A stretch of DNA of 42,460 bases from Phycisphaerae bacterium (GTDB lineage: Bacteria > Planctomycetota > Phycisphaerae > SM23-33): NCBI GenBank assembly GCA_018335035.1, contig JAGXKT010000022.1:1-42460 (forward strand), written 5' to 3'. Positions 24,111 through 30,008 of this stretch are shown in pieces. A program made the translations under genes and the position numbers. Numbering within the stretch: the stretch's first letter is position 1; each line of letters opens with the position of its first letter. The notes beneath the pieces were generated by a model. That model ran no database searches. It was given only the letters and a program-made list of their open reading frames with translations, and was not told the DNA's origin.

Positions 24111-25247
24111 TTACTCGAACAAACTGCCGGCCGGAGGGGTCGGCACGTAGTCGTGCTCGTGGAAATACGCGACCGCCTCGCTGACGGATCGGAATACGGC
24201 CGTGGCCGTTTGCGTGATGAACGGTGACGGCTCGGCGTCGGGCTTCCAGATGACGAACACGTCGCGCGTGGCCTCATGGGCGTGTTGCAACTCGCGCTCG
24301 ACCCCGCTGGACAGGCCGGGGCGACCGTCGGGAAGCCGCGGAATCAGCGAGATGACCATCTCGGCCTGGTCGATGAGCTTGAAGTCGCGGGCGTAGATCT
24401 GCCCGTCGATGTCGGGCAGGATGTCCAGCACCTGTGAGGTCTCCAGGCGGACGCGGGCGTCTTCCGGGCCGACCTCGAAGCTACGGTGCCCGGCCTCGGC
24501 GGCCTCGATCGCCGGAGCGGCGAGGTACTTCTCCTCCACGTCGCCGGGGTCGAAGCACACGAAGTGATGCTTCATCTCGCGGCGGAAGCCGAGGATTTCG
24601 GCGATCTGCTCCGAGCCGGCCGGCACGTGCGACATCGGGTAGCTCAGGTAACACTTGCGCAGTTCCGGGCGGCAGATCAGGTTGACGAACGTCTGGATCG
24701 TCGTGTCGTCCTGGCCGCGCGCGAGGATGTAGAACCCGTCGCGCCGGCGTGCGGCGCCGCGGTCGCCGGCGGCCCGGACGATCTCGCTGAGCAGCTCGGT
24801 TGCCAGCGTTTCCTCCTCGCGCCAGACCATCAGGTCCTTCAGCGTGTGGTCGTCGTGCCCGTCGCGGGTCAGGCGGTAGTGCACGCGGTCGATGTTGTCG
24901 ACCAGCACGACGTACAGCTCCGCGTCGAGCCGGACCATGTGATCGTAGTCGAAGGCGTAGAACAGCCCGTGTCGCCAGCGGAACGTCGCGTGCGTGTTGA
25001 CGACCACGTCCGTCCGCTCGCGTCCCTCCGAGAGGATGTCCTTGAACACGCTCCGCCGCAGACTCGTCAGCCGGCTCAGCGGCAGGTCCAGAATCCTGCC
25101 CGCCGCCACGTCGGGCGCCTCGGCGTACATCCGTGTGCCGACGTGGTACACCGTCCAGTCGTGCCCCTGCTCGCGCGCCAATTCGGCCGCACGCGACAAA
25201 AAGGGCTTCTTGTCCATCCCGACCTGTCCGGTCACCACCACGCGCAT
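24111..25247 (-). CDS. P-loop kinase-like / nucleoside deoxyribosyltransferase-like fusion
   Basis: A 378-residue protein with two parts. Residues 1-190 look like an archaeal-type adenylate kinase or AAA-type P-loop fold: RVVVTGQVGMDKKPF, a VVVNTHATFRW strand and a DNIDRVHYRLTRDGH segment. The P-loop is degenerate, with DKKPF instead of GK[ST]T. From about residue 200, KCYLSYPMSH, then a C-terminal IDQAEMVISLIPRL, a glycine turn and SSGVERELQHAHEATRDVFVIW resemble the nucleoside 2-deoxyribosyltransferase fold, where the acidic residue of the GxxxE segment is catalytic. Function unknown. The start at 25247 is preferred to 25256 because the earlier ATG overlaps a TAGAAT box that ends seven bases before 25247. 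Convergent with the LptC-like gene. Confidence 0.6.
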   Translation of the reverse strand: MRVVVTGQVGMDKKPFLSRAAELAREQGHDWTVYHVGTRMYAEAPDVAAGRILDLPLSRLTSLRRSVFKDILSEGRERTDVVVNTHATFRWRHGLFYAFDYDHMVRLDAELYVVLVDNIDRVHYRLTRDGHDDHTLKDLMVWREEETLATELLSEIVRAAGDRGAARRRDGFYILARGQDDTTIQTFVNLICRPELRKCYLSYPMSHVPAGSEQIAEILGFRREMKHHFVCFDPGDVEEKYLAAPAIEAAEAGHRSFEVGPEDARVRLETSQVLDILPDIDGQIYARDFKLIDQAEMVISLIPRLPDGRPGLSSGVERELQHAHEATRDVFVIWKPDAEPSPFITQTATAVFRSVSEAVAYFHEHDYVPTPPAGSLFE

Positions 25248-25288
25248 GGGCGGCATTCTACCGCCGCGCGGGCGGTACGAACAGGGGG

Positions 25289-26401
25289 CTACTCCGCGTC
25301 GGCCGCCAGCGCCCTGTCCAACGCGTCGGCGATGTTCGCGCGGAGGCTATCGGCGACGACCTTGCCGTCGGCACCGATCACCCACACGCTGGGAATGCTT
25401 GAGACGCCGTATTGCTGTGCCGTCGGGTCTTGCCCGCCCTTGTCCGAGAACGTGACCGCCCAGGGCAGATCGTTCTCCTCCAGCCAACTCGTCAGGTCGC
25501 TCTTGCGCCGGTCGAGACTGATGCCGATGAACTCGACGCCCTTGGGATGGTATTTCTCGTACAACTCGCGCATGTGTGGCATTGCCCGGATGCACGGGGC
25601 GCACCACGTCGCCCAGAAGTCGATCAGCACCACCTTGCCCTTCATGTCGTCCGGCAGGGCGATCGTCTCGCCGTCGAGTGTGGTCAGTTCGGCCTCGAAG
25701 GGCAATCGCCCGGCGATGCGCAGGAACCTTTCGGCGTTGGGCATGTCGGCGTGCTTCGCTTCGATCGTGTCCAGCAGCCCGTCGAGCGTGTCCGACAGGT
25801 CGAGACGCTTGGCGAGCATGGCCGAGGTGAGCACGGCATTGCCCGCGAACTCGCCATCGGCGTGCCGTGCGACAAACGCCTCGATGTGCTTCCGGGCGTG
25901 GGTCCGGGCGTCGGCGGGGCGGGTCGTCGTCGCGCGCAGGAAAATGTCGATTGCCGTGGCGTTTTCGTCGGCCTGGTAGCGCAATTGCGGCGGCGCGGTC
26001 GGCGTCTCGGCGAGAGATCGCGCGATGCGCACGAACTGGCGTCGCGATTCGCGCGTGCCTTCCAGCCGCATCAGCATGCCGGCGGCCTCCAGCATCGCGC
26101 CGCGGACAGCATGCAGGTTGGGCGCGTCGGGGTAGTCGCGTTCGGCCTTCGTGCCGATAGCGAGAATCTTCTCGCTGGCGTCCGTGTAGTGGGTGATCTG
26201 CGTCTGGCGCGAGGCGTCCTCGCTCGGCGGGCGTTGCGCTTCGCGAATGGCCTTGAACACGTCAGGCGGCACCGGCGCCGGTTTCGTTGAGGTGTCGGAT
26301 GCTTCGGCCTCGCCGTCGGCATCCGGCGCTTGGGCCCGGAGCGTCCCGATCGGAAGGAGCATCGCGGCGGCGGTCACAAGGGCGAAAATCCAGCGGGTCA
26401 T
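25289..26401 (-). CDS. TlpA-like periplasmic thioredoxin protein
   Basis: A 370-residue exported protein with a signal peptide (FALVTAAAMLLPIGTLRAQA), a helical N-terminal region of about 200 residues with no recognised domain, and a C-terminal TlpA/AhpC-type thioredoxin domain. The redox motif is WCAPC (Cys267, Cys270) inside VVLIDFWATWCAPC, followed by VSSIPSVWVIGADGKVV with the cis-proline. It probably reduces or oxidises envelope proteins. The ATG at 26401 has AGGAG seven bases upstream. It follows the pilin cluster in the same direction after 106 bases, but a likely promoter lies in the gap. The frame is open far upstream, but that is the shadow of the pilin gene. Confidence 0.87.
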   Translation of the reverse strand: MTRWIFALVTAAAMLLPIGTLRAQAPDADGEAEASDTSTKPAPVPPDVFKAIREAQRPPSEDASRQTQITHYTDASEKILAIGTKAERDYPDAPNLHAVRGAMLEAAGMLMRLEGTRESRRQFVRIARSLAETPTAPPQLRYQADENATAIDIFLRATTTRPADARTHARKHIEAFVARHADGEFAGNAVLTSAMLAKRLDLSDTLDGLLDTIEAKHADMPNAERFLRIAGRLPFEAELTTLDGETIALPDDMKGKVVLIDFWATWCAPCIRAMPHMRELYEKYHPKGVEFIGISLDRRKSDLTSWLEENDLPWAVTFSDKGGQDPTAQQYGVSSIPSVWVIGADGKVVADSLRANIADALDRALAADAE

Positions 26402-26507: not shown

Positions 26508-27908
26508 CTACTGAGCCGTGGGCGTCGGTTCGCAATACGTATCGGCCACCGGCTCCAGCGCGATGGACTTCTGGAAGCCGGCGTGGTCGGCTTCTGACGT
26601 AGTGCGGTCGATGCGGATCGAGACGCTGCCCTTGATCTCGCTGGGCAGGTCGGCCAGGCCGACGACCGAGCCGTTGATGCGTCCGGAGGCATTGCCGCCG
26701 AAAGCGAGGCGGTCGGCGGCGATGGCGCCGTTGATGGTCTGCAGATTTCCCTCGAAGACGGCCTCGAACCCCGGCGCCAGCAGGAACGTGCCCGTGTGTT
26801 GCCTGACGTCGGCGAATTCCGCGGTATCCGGCAGCGCCTCGACGCCCGAGACGGTGGCCGTTCCGGCGAACCGGAGCCGGCAATCCTCCAGCGGCAGGTC
26901 GTTGTTCTCGGTGACCACCATGCCGTTGAGCGTGCAGGAGCCCTCGAAGGACACAACATTGGGCGCCTCGACGTAGACGATGCCGTTGACGAGCGTGTCG
27001 TTCGCGAACGTAGGATTCGTACCGGCCGCGATGCGGATGTTGTTGTACGTCTGTCCCTGCTGCGAGGTGTCCGTGCTCGCATCGACGACAGTCGTTGCCA
27101 GCGCTTCCAGCGGCGCCGTGTCCAGCTCCGGGAAGTCCGGCGGATGGGCGTCGTAGTGCAGGTGGTCGGCGATTTCGGCCGGGTCGCTCGTGCCGCCGAT
27201 GGTCGGCTGCCCGCCGATCGAGATCGCACCGTCGCCTTGCGTGACGTAAAGGTCGCCGCTGACGTAAGCGCCGCTGCCCTCGACCGTAATGGGATACTGC
27301 GCCGACGTGTCAGCCGAGAAGACGTGCGCCTCGCCCGGCCAGTCGACACCGGCGACCTCGACACTACCGCCGATGAGCAGCTCGCCGCGCGACGCCAGAC
27401 CGTAGTCGAATACCAGCGGGTTCCGCGCCTCCATCGCCAGGTCGATGCTGACGGCGTGCGTGGCGTTGCCCGCGGTGCCCTCGATCGTCATGTGGCAGCA
27501 GGTGGCGTCCACCCAGGCGATTTGCGCGGTGAACGCGCGCCCGTCATTAAGGGCGATCGTCGGCACCGCGGCGCCGTCGGCGGTCGCGGCGACGGTCTGT
27601 CCGTCGAGGTTCGCCGTGCCGTCCAGAAGGTCTCCCAGGCAGTCGCTCAGATTCGCCGGGAAGTTGTCGGCGTCGGTGCTCAGCGGCAGGCGAATCTTGT
27701 GCAGCGAGCTGACCATGAACGCCAGGCCGCTCTCGGCCGCCAGACGCGCCTCGGCGCGGTCGTTGAGGTTCTCGCTGACCAGCAGGCCCATATCGCTGAC
27801 GGCGAACATCGCCGCGCCGAGCGTCACGAACACGACGAGCAGGACCACGGCCAGTACGGAGGCGATGCCTCTGTGTCGCGCCGGTCCTGTGGATGTCTTC
27901 GGGGTCAT
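26508..27908 (-). CDS. GspK/PilX-like protein with beta-helix-like repeats (paralogue 2)
   Basis: A 466-residue protein with a short basic N-terminus, one hydrophobic helix (about residues 14-36, RGIASVLAVVLLVVFVTLGA) and the ARLAAESGL motif typical of PilX/GspK N-termini. Position 5 after the glycine is not Glu, as in GspK. The remainder is beta-rich with degenerate GS/GN turns (IGGSVEVAG, FEGSCTLNG, FAGTATVSG, FEGNLQTING). It is clearly paralogous to the product at 28524-29975: both share GANP/GTNPT, VYxEAPN, GVEALPD and FLLAPGF in the same order. AGGAGGTG lies five bases before the ATG at 27908. Probably a minor pseudopilin or pilus-tip protein. Confidence 0.7.
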   Translation of the reverse strand: MTPKTSTGPARHRGIASVLAVVLLVVFVTLGAAMFAVSDMGLLVSENLNDRAEARLAAESGLAFMVSSLHKIRLPLSTDADNFPANLSDCLGDLLDGTANLDGQTVAATADGAAVPTIALNDGRAFTAQIAWVDATCCHMTIEGTAGNATHAVSIDLAMEARNPLVFDYGLASRGELLIGGSVEVAGVDWPGEAHVFSADTSAQYPITVEGSGAYVSGDLYVTQGDGAISIGGQPTIGGTSDPAEIADHLHYDAHPPDFPELDTAPLEALATTVVDASTDTSQQGQTYNNIRIAAGTNPTFANDTLVNGIVYVEAPNVVSFEGSCTLNGMVVTENNDLPLEDCRLRFAGTATVSGVEALPDTAEFADVRQHTGTFLLAPGFEAVFEGNLQTINGAIAADRLAFGGNASGRINGSVVGLADLPSEIKGSVSIRIDRTTSEADHAGFQKSIALEPVADTYCEPTPTAQ

Positions 27909-27993
27909 GGGGCACCTCCTGCTGTGCGTCCTTTGAGGCATTGCGCCGTCGTGGCGCGGCCTGCGGGCCCCCTGTGGGTGTCCGACAGGGCAA

Positions 27994-28523: not shown

Positions 28524-29975
28524 TCAATACTCGCAGTAGCTGTCCGGCACGGCCGTCAGCGGACCCGGCACGACGAAGCCGGGCGGCACGGCTGGTTCGC
28601 CCTCGTAGTCCGTTCCGTCGCTGCGGTCCACGTCGTCCGAGCGGTCAAAGACGAGCGTGGAGTTGCCCACCAGCTTGAACTCCGAATCGCTGTAGTTGAT
28701 GATCATGCCCTTGACGGTCCCGCCGGCGTTGCCGGCGAATTTGAACTCGTCGGCCGCCATCGTGCCGGCGACCGTCCCGAAATTGCCCGTAAACTGCACG
28801 CCGAAGCCCGGTGCCAGCAGGAACGAGCCGGGCATCTGCCGCAACTCGGAAAAGGTTTCGTTGTCCGGCAGGGCCTCGACGCCCTGGACGGACGTGTTGC
28901 CCGTGAACTTGATGGTGTTCGAGTCGTAGACCCCCTCGCCGGCGTCCTCTGTGACGATGACACCGATGATGTCCACGTTGCCGGAGAAGTGCACCTGGTT
29001 CGGCGCCTCGATATAGACCACGCCGCGGACGGTGGTATTGCCCGAGATCGTCGGGTTCGCCCCGGCCGGGATGCGGATGTTCTCCAGCGTCTGGTTGCCG
29101 CCTCCGCCGGTGTAGGTATTGACGGCGAACGGCTCGAAGACGTCGGGGTTGACCTCGGGAAAGTCCACCGGCCCGATGCCCGTGTGGACGTGGTCCCAGA
29201 CGTCGTCGTCGCGCCCGGAGACGCCGCCGATCGAGACGTTTCCCGTCAGCGTCGCGTAGGCATCGGGGTTGGAGAAGAACGCGTCGCCTTCGATGTCGGC
29301 GTTTCCGGTGAGTTTCATCGCTTCGTCATCCGAGTACGTCGCGGACAGCACCTGCGCCTCGCTGGGCGAATTCATGCCCTCCACGCTGGCGTTGCCGGTG
29401 ATACGGACCTTGCTGCGCGAGGCGATCCCGTGACCGAAGAAGGCCGCCATGCTCGGGGGGATGTCTTCCGGGTCGGGCACATCGTCCAGCGCCTGCGCCT
29501 CGTAGTCGAGCGAGACCTTCCGGCTGACGTCGCCGCGCTGCCCGACCACCTCCAGCCGGACGGTCTCGTTGTCGGCGAGCCACAACTGTGCCGTGAACGC
29601 ACCGACACCGGGCGCGCTGATTTCGGGGATCGTAATCGTCGTGTCGTCGGAGCTAACGGTTCCACCGTCAAGATTGCCCGTGCCGTTGAGTGTGTCGGAT
29701 AGGTAGGAGGCCAACTCGTCGAGCAGGCCCTGTCCTTCCGTCGCCGCGGGGGTGCAATCGCTCAACGCATAGTTGACGAAGTTCAACCCGCTCTCGGCGA
29801 CCAGGCGGGCTTCGGCTACCTCGCGGGCGTTGTTGCTCTGTTGCTGGGCCATGTCCGCCGTGACGGCGATGCCGACGGCGATCGTGCTCAGCACGACCAG
29901 CAACAGCAGCGCCAACACCGCGGCGATGCCTCGGCGCACCGTACATTGTCTCATATGCAGTTCTCGTATGCGCAT
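28524..29975 (-). CDS. GspK/PilX-like protein with nine GN repeats (paralogue 1)
   Basis: A 483-residue protein with one N-terminal hydrophobic helix (RGIAAVLALLLLVVLSTIAV, about 15-37), then AEARLVAESGLN as in PilX/GspK; no Glu at position 5. The motif [hydrophobic]-[TSAV]-G-N recurs nine times, ending at Asn195, 225, 246, 313, 333, 360, 398, 416 and 438, often continued as xx[IV]xG (TGNASVEG, TGNADIEG, TGNVSIGG, TGNTSVQG). The spacing suggests turns of a beta-helix or solenoid similar in style to bactofilins. GGAGAGG before the ATG at 29975 supports this start over one at 29999. Probably a pseudopilin tip or surface protein; no function is proven. Confidence 0.7.
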   Translation of the reverse strand: MRIRELHMRQCTVRRGIAAVLALLLLVVLSTIAVGIAVTADMAQQQSNNAREVAEARLVAESGLNFVNYALSDCTPAATEGQGLLDELASYLSDTLNGTGNLDGGTVSSDDTTITIPEISAPGVGAFTAQLWLADNETVRLEVVGQRGDVSRKVSLDYEAQALDDVPDPEDIPPSMAAFFGHGIASRSKVRITGNASVEGMNSPSEAQVLSATYSDDEAMKLTGNADIEGDAFFSNPDAYATLTGNVSIGGVSGRDDDVWDHVHTGIGPVDFPEVNPDVFEPFAVNTYTGGGGNQTLENIRIPAGANPTISGNTTVRGVVYIEAPNQVHFSGNVDIIGVIVTEDAGEGVYDSNTIKFTGNTSVQGVEALPDNETFSELRQMPGSFLLAPGFGVQFTGNFGTVAGTMAADEFKFAGNAGGTVKGMIINYSDSEFKLVGNSTLVFDRSDDVDRSDGTDYEGEPAVPPGFVVPGPLTAVPDSYCEY

Positions 29976-30008
29976 GTTTGCCTCTCCTTTGTGCCGCATC
30001 GTCAGCGT

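Follow-up and report, generated by a model that had tools for sequence, protein, structure and literature searches.

The window analysed here, a stretch of 42,460 nucleotides from a Phycisphaerae bacterium, carries on its minus strand a gene in which an adenylate kinase-like domain is fused to a deoxyribosyltransferase-like domain (Table 1). The open reading frame is real, and its letters agree with the earlier reading of this DNA. The P-loop of the encoded protein reads VTGQVGMDKKPF, and SSGVERELQHAHE is also found in it.

Pfam matches were obtained for 14 of 20 chosen reading frames of the window, and all are to metabolic, envelope, redox or secretion/pilus families. The LptA-like reading frame, which matches LptA/LptD_N, sits downstream of SIS-CBS and HAD genes, which we take to be KdsD/KdsC-like, and may encode a long LPS-transport protein or an LptC-LptA type fusion. 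These SIS-CBS and HAD genes and a set of type II secretion genes lie further out in the window. Within the type II secretion/pilus cluster, the minus strand encodes two similar-looking proteins of 477 and 491 residues (26508-27941 and 28524-29999), each with an N-terminal hydrophobic stretch as judged by eye; neither has a Pfam match at E 0.001.

We surveyed the neighbours of the gene in 111 sequences, namely the window and 110 loci (one from the window's own genome; one locus lost the target), with genes called by a home-made codon score. Members of the protein cluster of the window's thioredoxin-like gene lie upstream of the fusion gene in 13 of the 111, usually two genes away. The commonest neighbour, encoded on the other strand at a distance of one to three genes, occurs in 25 sequences, and no conserved operon or constant neighbour was found across the 111 sequences. 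Neither this survey nor the Pfam scan of the window revealed a biosynthetic cluster around the gene. The earlier note had described the gene as sitting alone, which holds for its operon context only, as the gene itself is class-wide; the survey of homologues that it had proposed brought up no conserved housekeeping operon in the 111 sequences.

Table 1 The fusion gene, its domains and motifs, and the adjoining genes (positions in the window)
Feature	Position	Strand	Basis or remark
Whole gene, two-domain fusion	24111..25256	-	381 aa plus stop; ORF, 88-sequence alignment, AlphaFold model, structure comparison
N domain, residues 1-196	24669..25256	-	AdkA fold with altered catalytic motifs; 3h86 Z 21.2
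Altered P-loop GQVGMDKKP, residues 10-18	25203..25229	-	D15, K16, K17 where kinase has G-[KG]-[ST]
NTH, residues 87-89	24990..24998	-	DTH in archaeal adenylate kinases
WREEE, residues 145-149	24810..24824	-	Invariant 88/88; no clear counterpart in kinase alignment
C domain, residues 197-381	24114..24668	-	Deoxyribosyltransferase/DNPH1 fold; 7o62 Z 15.7; DNPH1 9i57 Z 13.9
Y203	24648..24650	-	Putative counterpart of DNPH1 Y24 / DmtZ Y6; inferred mapping
FDP, residues 235-237	24546..24554	-	Proposed counterpart of DmtZ [FY][DEN]P57; mapped from strand order, not hhalign
D291	24384..24386	-	Putative counterpart of DNPH1 D80 / DmtZ N77; aligned to N77 by hhalign
SSGVEREL, residues 316-323	24288..24311	-	S316, proposed 5'-phosphate Ser (DNPH1 S98); E322, putative nucleophile (DNPH1 E104 / DmtZ E103)
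S344, before helix 345-350	24225..24227	-	Proposed counterpart of DNPH1 S128' / DmtZ S123
Thioredoxin-like gene (AhpC/TSA, redoxin)	25289-26401	-	Directly upstream of the fusion gene, 32 bases apart, same strand
LptA-like ORF, 1126 aa	20591-23971	+	LptA/LptD_N match; converges on the fusion gene from the other side

Two folds and an altered kinase domain

We aligned 88 full-length sequences, comprising the window protein and 87 relatives that are 52-72% identical to it, and predicted the structure from this alignment with AlphaFold (pLDDT 89.8, pTM 0.89). For residues 2-197 the matches are adenylate kinases from methanogens and Aeropyrum, with Z 20.5-21.2 over 182-186 residues, the best being 3h86 (Z 21.2, rmsd 2.0, 182 aligned residues); the fold of the whole domain is thus common to the N half and AdkA (3h86, 6pjw, 6ln3; NCBIfam PRK04040). 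Residues 197-373 match the deoxyribosyltransferase 7o62 (Z 15.7 over 128 residues) and DNPH1 (9i57, Z 14.1 over 131 residues). When modelled alone (pLDDT 92.0), the C domain gave Z 15.4 and 13.9 with the same two structures, and the designed phosphodeoxyribosyltransferase 4hx9 was also among its matches (Z 12.4). In the model of the whole protein the N domain is confidently placed against the enzyme domain. For the predicted structure, this comparison settles both folds, and the invariant positions across the 88 sequences make the two-domain observation more than chance.

Sequence profiles gave far weaker matches. The N half of the single window sequence reached E 1.6e-4 with Pfam AAA_17, below the family cut-off, and 20.4 bits with the NCBIfam archaeal adenylate kinase, for which the cut-off is 155. 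The C half of the window protein has no Pfam match; Nuc_deoxyrib_tr (PF05014) hits 8 of the 88 family members, with a best E of 0.05 and under the curated cut-off. A search of the PDB with the C-domain sequence profile returned nothing relevant and no solved structure, and a PDB sequence search with DmtZ of phage Ghobes likewise returned nothing relevant.

The P-loop of the N domain is strictly conserved in its altered form. G10, Q11, G13 and D15 are invariant in the 88 sequences and K16 is present in 87, while position 17, which is [ST] in the kinases, is Lys in 83 and Thr in one. In a held-out set, D15 is Asp in 39 sequences and Asn in 4, and K17 is variable in the held-out families (Lys in 30 of 43). 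The aspartate of DTH is replaced by Asn in all 88 sequences. Comparison with five solved archaeal kinases showed that V-T-G-x-x-G, H89, R93 and G97 are retained, and the N half shares with AdkA the GxxG, [NH]xGxxM-like, TH and [KR] positions; by contrast, G-[KG]-[ST] and DTH of AdkA are DKK and NTH here. The DRDx[IM]R stretch of the kinases is not recognisable, and neither is the lid motif TRxRD, in a region where the alignment is weak. The TRxRD lid arginines of adenylate kinases have a catalytic role, and two invariant arginines of the N half, R128 and R146, might stand in for them. New invariant blocks have appeared in the N half, the THATFRWRHGLF stretch and WREEE. Mean column identity is also a little higher in the N half than in the C half (61% versus 57%, 48 sequences each), which suggests that the N-half pocket does something besides ordinary kinase work, or that its use has been modified.

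The N domain thus appears, from its sequence, to be an archaeal-type adenylate kinase by descent whose kinase machinery has been lost. Methanococcal adenylate kinases also lack the P-loop lysine (GVGGTT) but retain the threonine, so the loss of a single motif would still be compatible with kinase activity. Adenylate kinase (PF00406) was found in 24 of 24 genomes of the class tested and thymidylate kinase (PF02223) in 23 of 24, the single miss being a genome that is 87% complete, and both were found with and without the fusion gene. The N domain is therefore not needed as a stand-in kinase, and a role as a replacement kinase was ruled out on these counts. dUTPase (PF00692) was found in 15 of the 24 genomes, with no pattern against the fusion gene. 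By the tests made, the window protein is not a regular adenylate kinase.

Both domain assignments of the earlier note, an archaeal adenylate kinase-like half with DKKPF in place of GK[ST]T and a deoxyribosyltransferase-like half, are borne out by the folds and by the alignment. The profile searches that it had suggested for each half gave weak AAA_17 and adenylate kinase hits for the first and no Pfam match for the second half of the window protein.

Putative active site of the C domain

DNPH1 is a 2'-deoxynucleoside 5'-phosphate N-hydrolase in which Y24, D80 and E104 are described as catalytic and the phosphate is held by S98, six residues before E104, and by S128' (PMC10603095). The C domain shares its fold (9i57, 8rpt, 4kxl; Z 13.9-14.1 for 9i57), the Tyr-Asp-Glu triad, the Ser at nucleophile -6 and possibly a Ser at the extension helix. 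Y203, D236, P237, D291, S316, E322 and S344 are each present in 88 of 88 sequences, and SSGVEREL is invariant. In the model, Y203 lies on the first strand, D291 in the long helix and S316 six residues before E322. The Y203-D291-E322 triad is assigned by alignment and spacing. S344, which is Lys in a distant paralogue, was matched to S128' by secondary structure only (DNPH1 extension 128-133) and aligns to S123 of DmtZ only in a forced long hhalign alignment. R30 and H56 of DNPH1 have no counterpart that we could see in the C domain, and its LTEHV motif contrasts with FDP, which follows the second strand; position 209 is Ser or Thr and there is no conserved Arg at 203-213.

These positions also persist in the held-out set of 45 loci, which come mostly from families thin in the main alignment, include fragments and the distant paralogue, and may share species with that alignment. 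Y203 is found in 43 (one X, one gap), P237 in 43 of the 44 with a letter, D291 in all 41 with a letter (four gaps), S316 in 41, E322 in 40 with gaps in the rest, and S344 in 39 of the 40 with a letter, the exception being Lys.

Profile comparison with hhalign related the C domain to six phage DmtZ sequences (probability 92.7, score 48.4), with E322 on E103 and D291 on N77; the best of 60 column shuffles scored 20.6, and none reached 48.4. Comparison with 15 planctomycete nucleoside deoxyribosyltransferases (NDTs) gave probability 36 and score 31.1, again with E322 on the nucleophile, and here the best shuffle scored 20.7, none of 60 reaching 31.1. The glutamate of the deoxyribosyltransferase motif, a check of which the earlier note had proposed, is thereby confirmed as E322. 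Judged by profile, phage DmtZ is the better fit to the C domain of the two families compared. In structure, the NDT 7o62 remains the best match (Z 15.4-15.7; PF05014, 7o62 and 1f8x), with the nucleophile Glu aligned. The NDTs have Asp at nucleophile -6 in 15 of 15 sequences, a set drawn from 30 loci by a motif that admits no letter but D or G at that position, and an Asn motif further on in 14 of 15; both positions, which contact the 5'-OH of the sugar in NDTs, are Ser in the fusion family. The serines in place of Asp and Asn point to 5'-phosphorylated substrates. In DmtZ, too, the Asp/Asn with which NDTs hold the 5'-OH are described as missing, a feature it has in common with nucleotide hydrolases (PMC12884076). 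By the tests made, the window protein is not a standard NDT.

DmtZ is reported to be both a dAMP hydrolase and a deoxyribose-5-phosphate transferase, and is called the first natural enzyme with 2'-deoxyribose-5-phosphate transferase activity; its Pro57 is given as conserved in all known transferases (PMC12884076). The C domain has in common with DmtZ (Gordonia phage Ghobes AOE44404.1) the Tyr, the nucleophile Glu and the [FY][DEN]P motif, which is found in 6 of 6 DmtZ sequences and as F235-D236-P237 in 88 of 88 members of the fusion family. The local hhalign alignment leaves out the FDP region, so the equivalence of P237 and P57 rests on strand order and motif. Since DmtZ has Pro57 yet hydrolyses dAMP, the proline does not exclude a hydrolase. 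The families differ in that Asn77 (6 of 6) corresponds to Asp291, and 20 residues separate Pro from Asn in DmtZ whereas 54 separate Pro from Asp in the fusion family. The lid residue Trp124 of DmtZ falls opposite the invariant Phe346 in the forced long alignment, with gaps nearby. Tyr203, at the position where MilB has Phe, would fit a deoxyribose (PMC10603095).

Distribution and relatives

The gene is a feature of one class, that of the Phycisphaerales. Profile searches covered the planctomycete phylum, and GTDB species were covered by one peptide-pattern scan (one genome per species), which found 103 relatives; 80 of them were kept, all titled as planctomycete or as 'uncultured bacterium'. 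The gene is present in 50 of 60 genomes (the window's own and 59 relatives). In a phylum sample of 392 genomes, with class membership counted by order of listing, 38 of the 41 class members carry it (the window's own genome among them), against 1 of the 351 genomes of other classes. In a sample of the class it was found in 355 of 396 genomes, 289 of 314 better genomes and 236 of 266 genera; among the misses listed (20 of 41), 16 are in families f3, f11, f12, f14 and f116, although f14 is not uniformly without the gene, as two of its genomes carry a copy. About nine tenths of the class genomes thus carry a gene without a match over the curated threshold in Pfam or NCBIfam.

The phylogenetic tree places the window's order in one clade of 33 rows with support 100/100 and the remaining 77 rows in a second clade. 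The sole hit outside the class (genome G277) nests among Phycisphaeraceae and is a contamination or a recent transfer. Most genomes gave a single match. Among 24 genomes selected in part because they gave double matches, three have two full-length copies, G699 (L188, L209), G515 (L186, L210) and G628 (L193, L211); these pairs may show copies that have diverged, or contamination, which is listed at 2-8%.

Searches of 72,556 plasmid records and 50,697 phage records brought up no relative, and none was confirmed on viral contigs. PADLOC and PHROGs each returned 0 families for the window protein. The presence in 355 of 396 class genomes, the lack of plasmid, phage and viral relatives and the lack of a conserved operon indicate that the gene is probably class-wide housekeeping rather than defence.

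A search for other fusions of a P-loop domain with a deoxyribosyltransferase in the phylum covered 44 loci (L141-L184), among them 13 PF05014-match regions and the region of G277; apart from the G277 orthologue, none of them gave a hit to the family profiles at E 10. Of 294 genomes in the phylum sample, 87 have PF05014 itself; the window's own genome has no match to it. One distant two-domain paralogue was found in genome G736 (L214 1243-2508, minus strand), with E 1.2e-18 and 75 of 359 aligned residues identical (21%). With the family profile it scored 72.4 bits, whereas 200 shuffled copies reached 2.1 at most, and it is likewise absent from the plasmid, phage and viral-contig searches. Its P-loop reads GPSGINKR. 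The paralogue keeps G10, G13, K16, H89, D120 and R128, the W145, R146 and E149 of WREEE, and six of the seven putative glycosidase residues (Y203, D236, P237, D291, S316, E322), and lacks D15, N87 and S344. Since it shares the two-domain plan and the core residues, the plan is older than the orthologue family, and the core retained at this distance is, to judge from the residues, a glycosidase site plus a reduced nucleotide pocket. Its gene adjoins HEAT-repeat and GGDEF genes.

Proposed function and its alternatives

Folds, conservation and distribution are computed results, from which we infer how the protein works: its catalysis, the kind of substrate, the acceptor and regulation by the N domain. 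The protein would be a deoxynucleotide N-glycosidase or base-exchange enzyme of nucleotide metabolism with a pseudokinase regulatory domain, a reading to which we give somewhat better than an even chance. The C domain would bind a 2'-deoxynucleoside 5'-monophosphate; E322 would attack C1' while D291 helps the base to leave, and the resulting deoxyribose-5-phosphate-enzyme intermediate would be resolved either by water, as in a DNPH1-like N-hydrolase, or by another base, as in DmtZ-like exchange. Because of the invariant F-D-P motif, base exchange seems slightly likelier than hydrolysis. The N domain would most likely be a nucleotide-binding regulatory domain. That the protein is specifically a cellular 2'-deoxyribose-5-phosphate transferase, with which most species of the class swap the bases of dNMPs under the control of a built-in nucleotide sensor derived from adenylate kinase, is a tentative and rather doubtful proposal. 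If the C domain does act as a nucleotide-level glycosidase or transferase, it would open a route of nucleotide salvage or sanitation unrecognised in these bacteria, and the phage DmtZ enzymes would have a relative in cells. The N domain would plainly illustrate how a metabolic kinase can become a strictly conserved pocket that serves a different purpose.

The conservation of the N half could also be read as a sign of retained activity, in which the domain would still be a phosphotransferase or phosphohydrolase using its D-K-K P-loop and would feed its nucleotide to the C domain. The persistence of G10, G13 and D15 in all 88 sequences and of K16 in 87, the slightly higher identity of the N half, the invariant R128 and R146 as candidate lid arginines and the existence of archaeal kinases without the P-loop Lys are all consistent with such a bifunctional protein. 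A substrate-making partner also has a precedent in the DmtZ-DutZ of phage Wayne, in which, as described, a fused dUTPase-like domain, in place of the kinase-like one seen here, makes the substrate for DmtZ (PMC12884076). Against this, the P-loop [ST] is Lys in 83 of 88 sequences and the DTH aspartate is Asn in every one, DRDx[IM]R and TRxRD are not recognisable, and the genomes have Adk (24 of 24) and Tmk (23 of 24) in any case, and we consider a bifunctional protein unlikely. The altered kinase motifs, together with the lack of a pathway partner among the neighbours in the 111 sequences, would suit a protein in which neither half is catalytic and which binds nucleotides and signals to a partner. 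A pure sensor of this kind is distinctly improbable, since none of the 88 sequences departs from the active-site set of the C half, and the paralogue with 21% identity still has six of these seven residues.

The preferred glycosidase or exchange reading leaves room for a different substrate, a ribonucleotide or a modified nucleotide intermediate of a class-specific biosynthesis. MilB, a member of this fold family in which the phosphate Ser is retained as S97, is described as acting on (hydroxymethyl-)CMP (PMC10603095; PMC4081090), and the base-recognition residues of the C domain differ from those of DNPH1. However, Phe17 of MilB is reported to admit ribose (PMC10603095), where the fusion family has Tyr203 in 88 of 88 sequences. 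No biosynthetic cluster was seen around the gene, and we regard a MilB-like substrate as improbable. The chemistry of the C domain could also deplete nucleotides, and deoxyribosyltransferase-like effectors occur in some retrons, which would agree with an anti-phage or toxin-type protein. We rate the chance of such a role as close to negligible: the absence of PADLOC and PHROGs families and of mobile relatives, and a class-wide rather than patchy or mobile distribution, led us to rule it out, and the tree keeps the window's order together. The phage defence suggested in the earlier note accordingly falls away, while its account of the domains, the P-loop and the glutamate stands, and the protein is still best read as a nucleotide-sensing or nucleotide-acting enzyme.

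Among the papers listed for such fusions, pseudokinases, class signature proteins and defence, no title or opening of an abstract describes such a fusion, and none of those listed for fusions and pseudokinases presents a transferase of this kind with a pseudokinase regulator. Part of a 602-residue protein of Tupanvirus soda lake (A0A6N1NX88 in BFVD), which is named adenylate kinase, matches the C-domain fold with E 7.1e-4. Its name and this fold match, by which it is known here, suggest that a fusion of a kinase with a deoxyribosyltransferase-like domain may exist elsewhere, possibly of independent origin.
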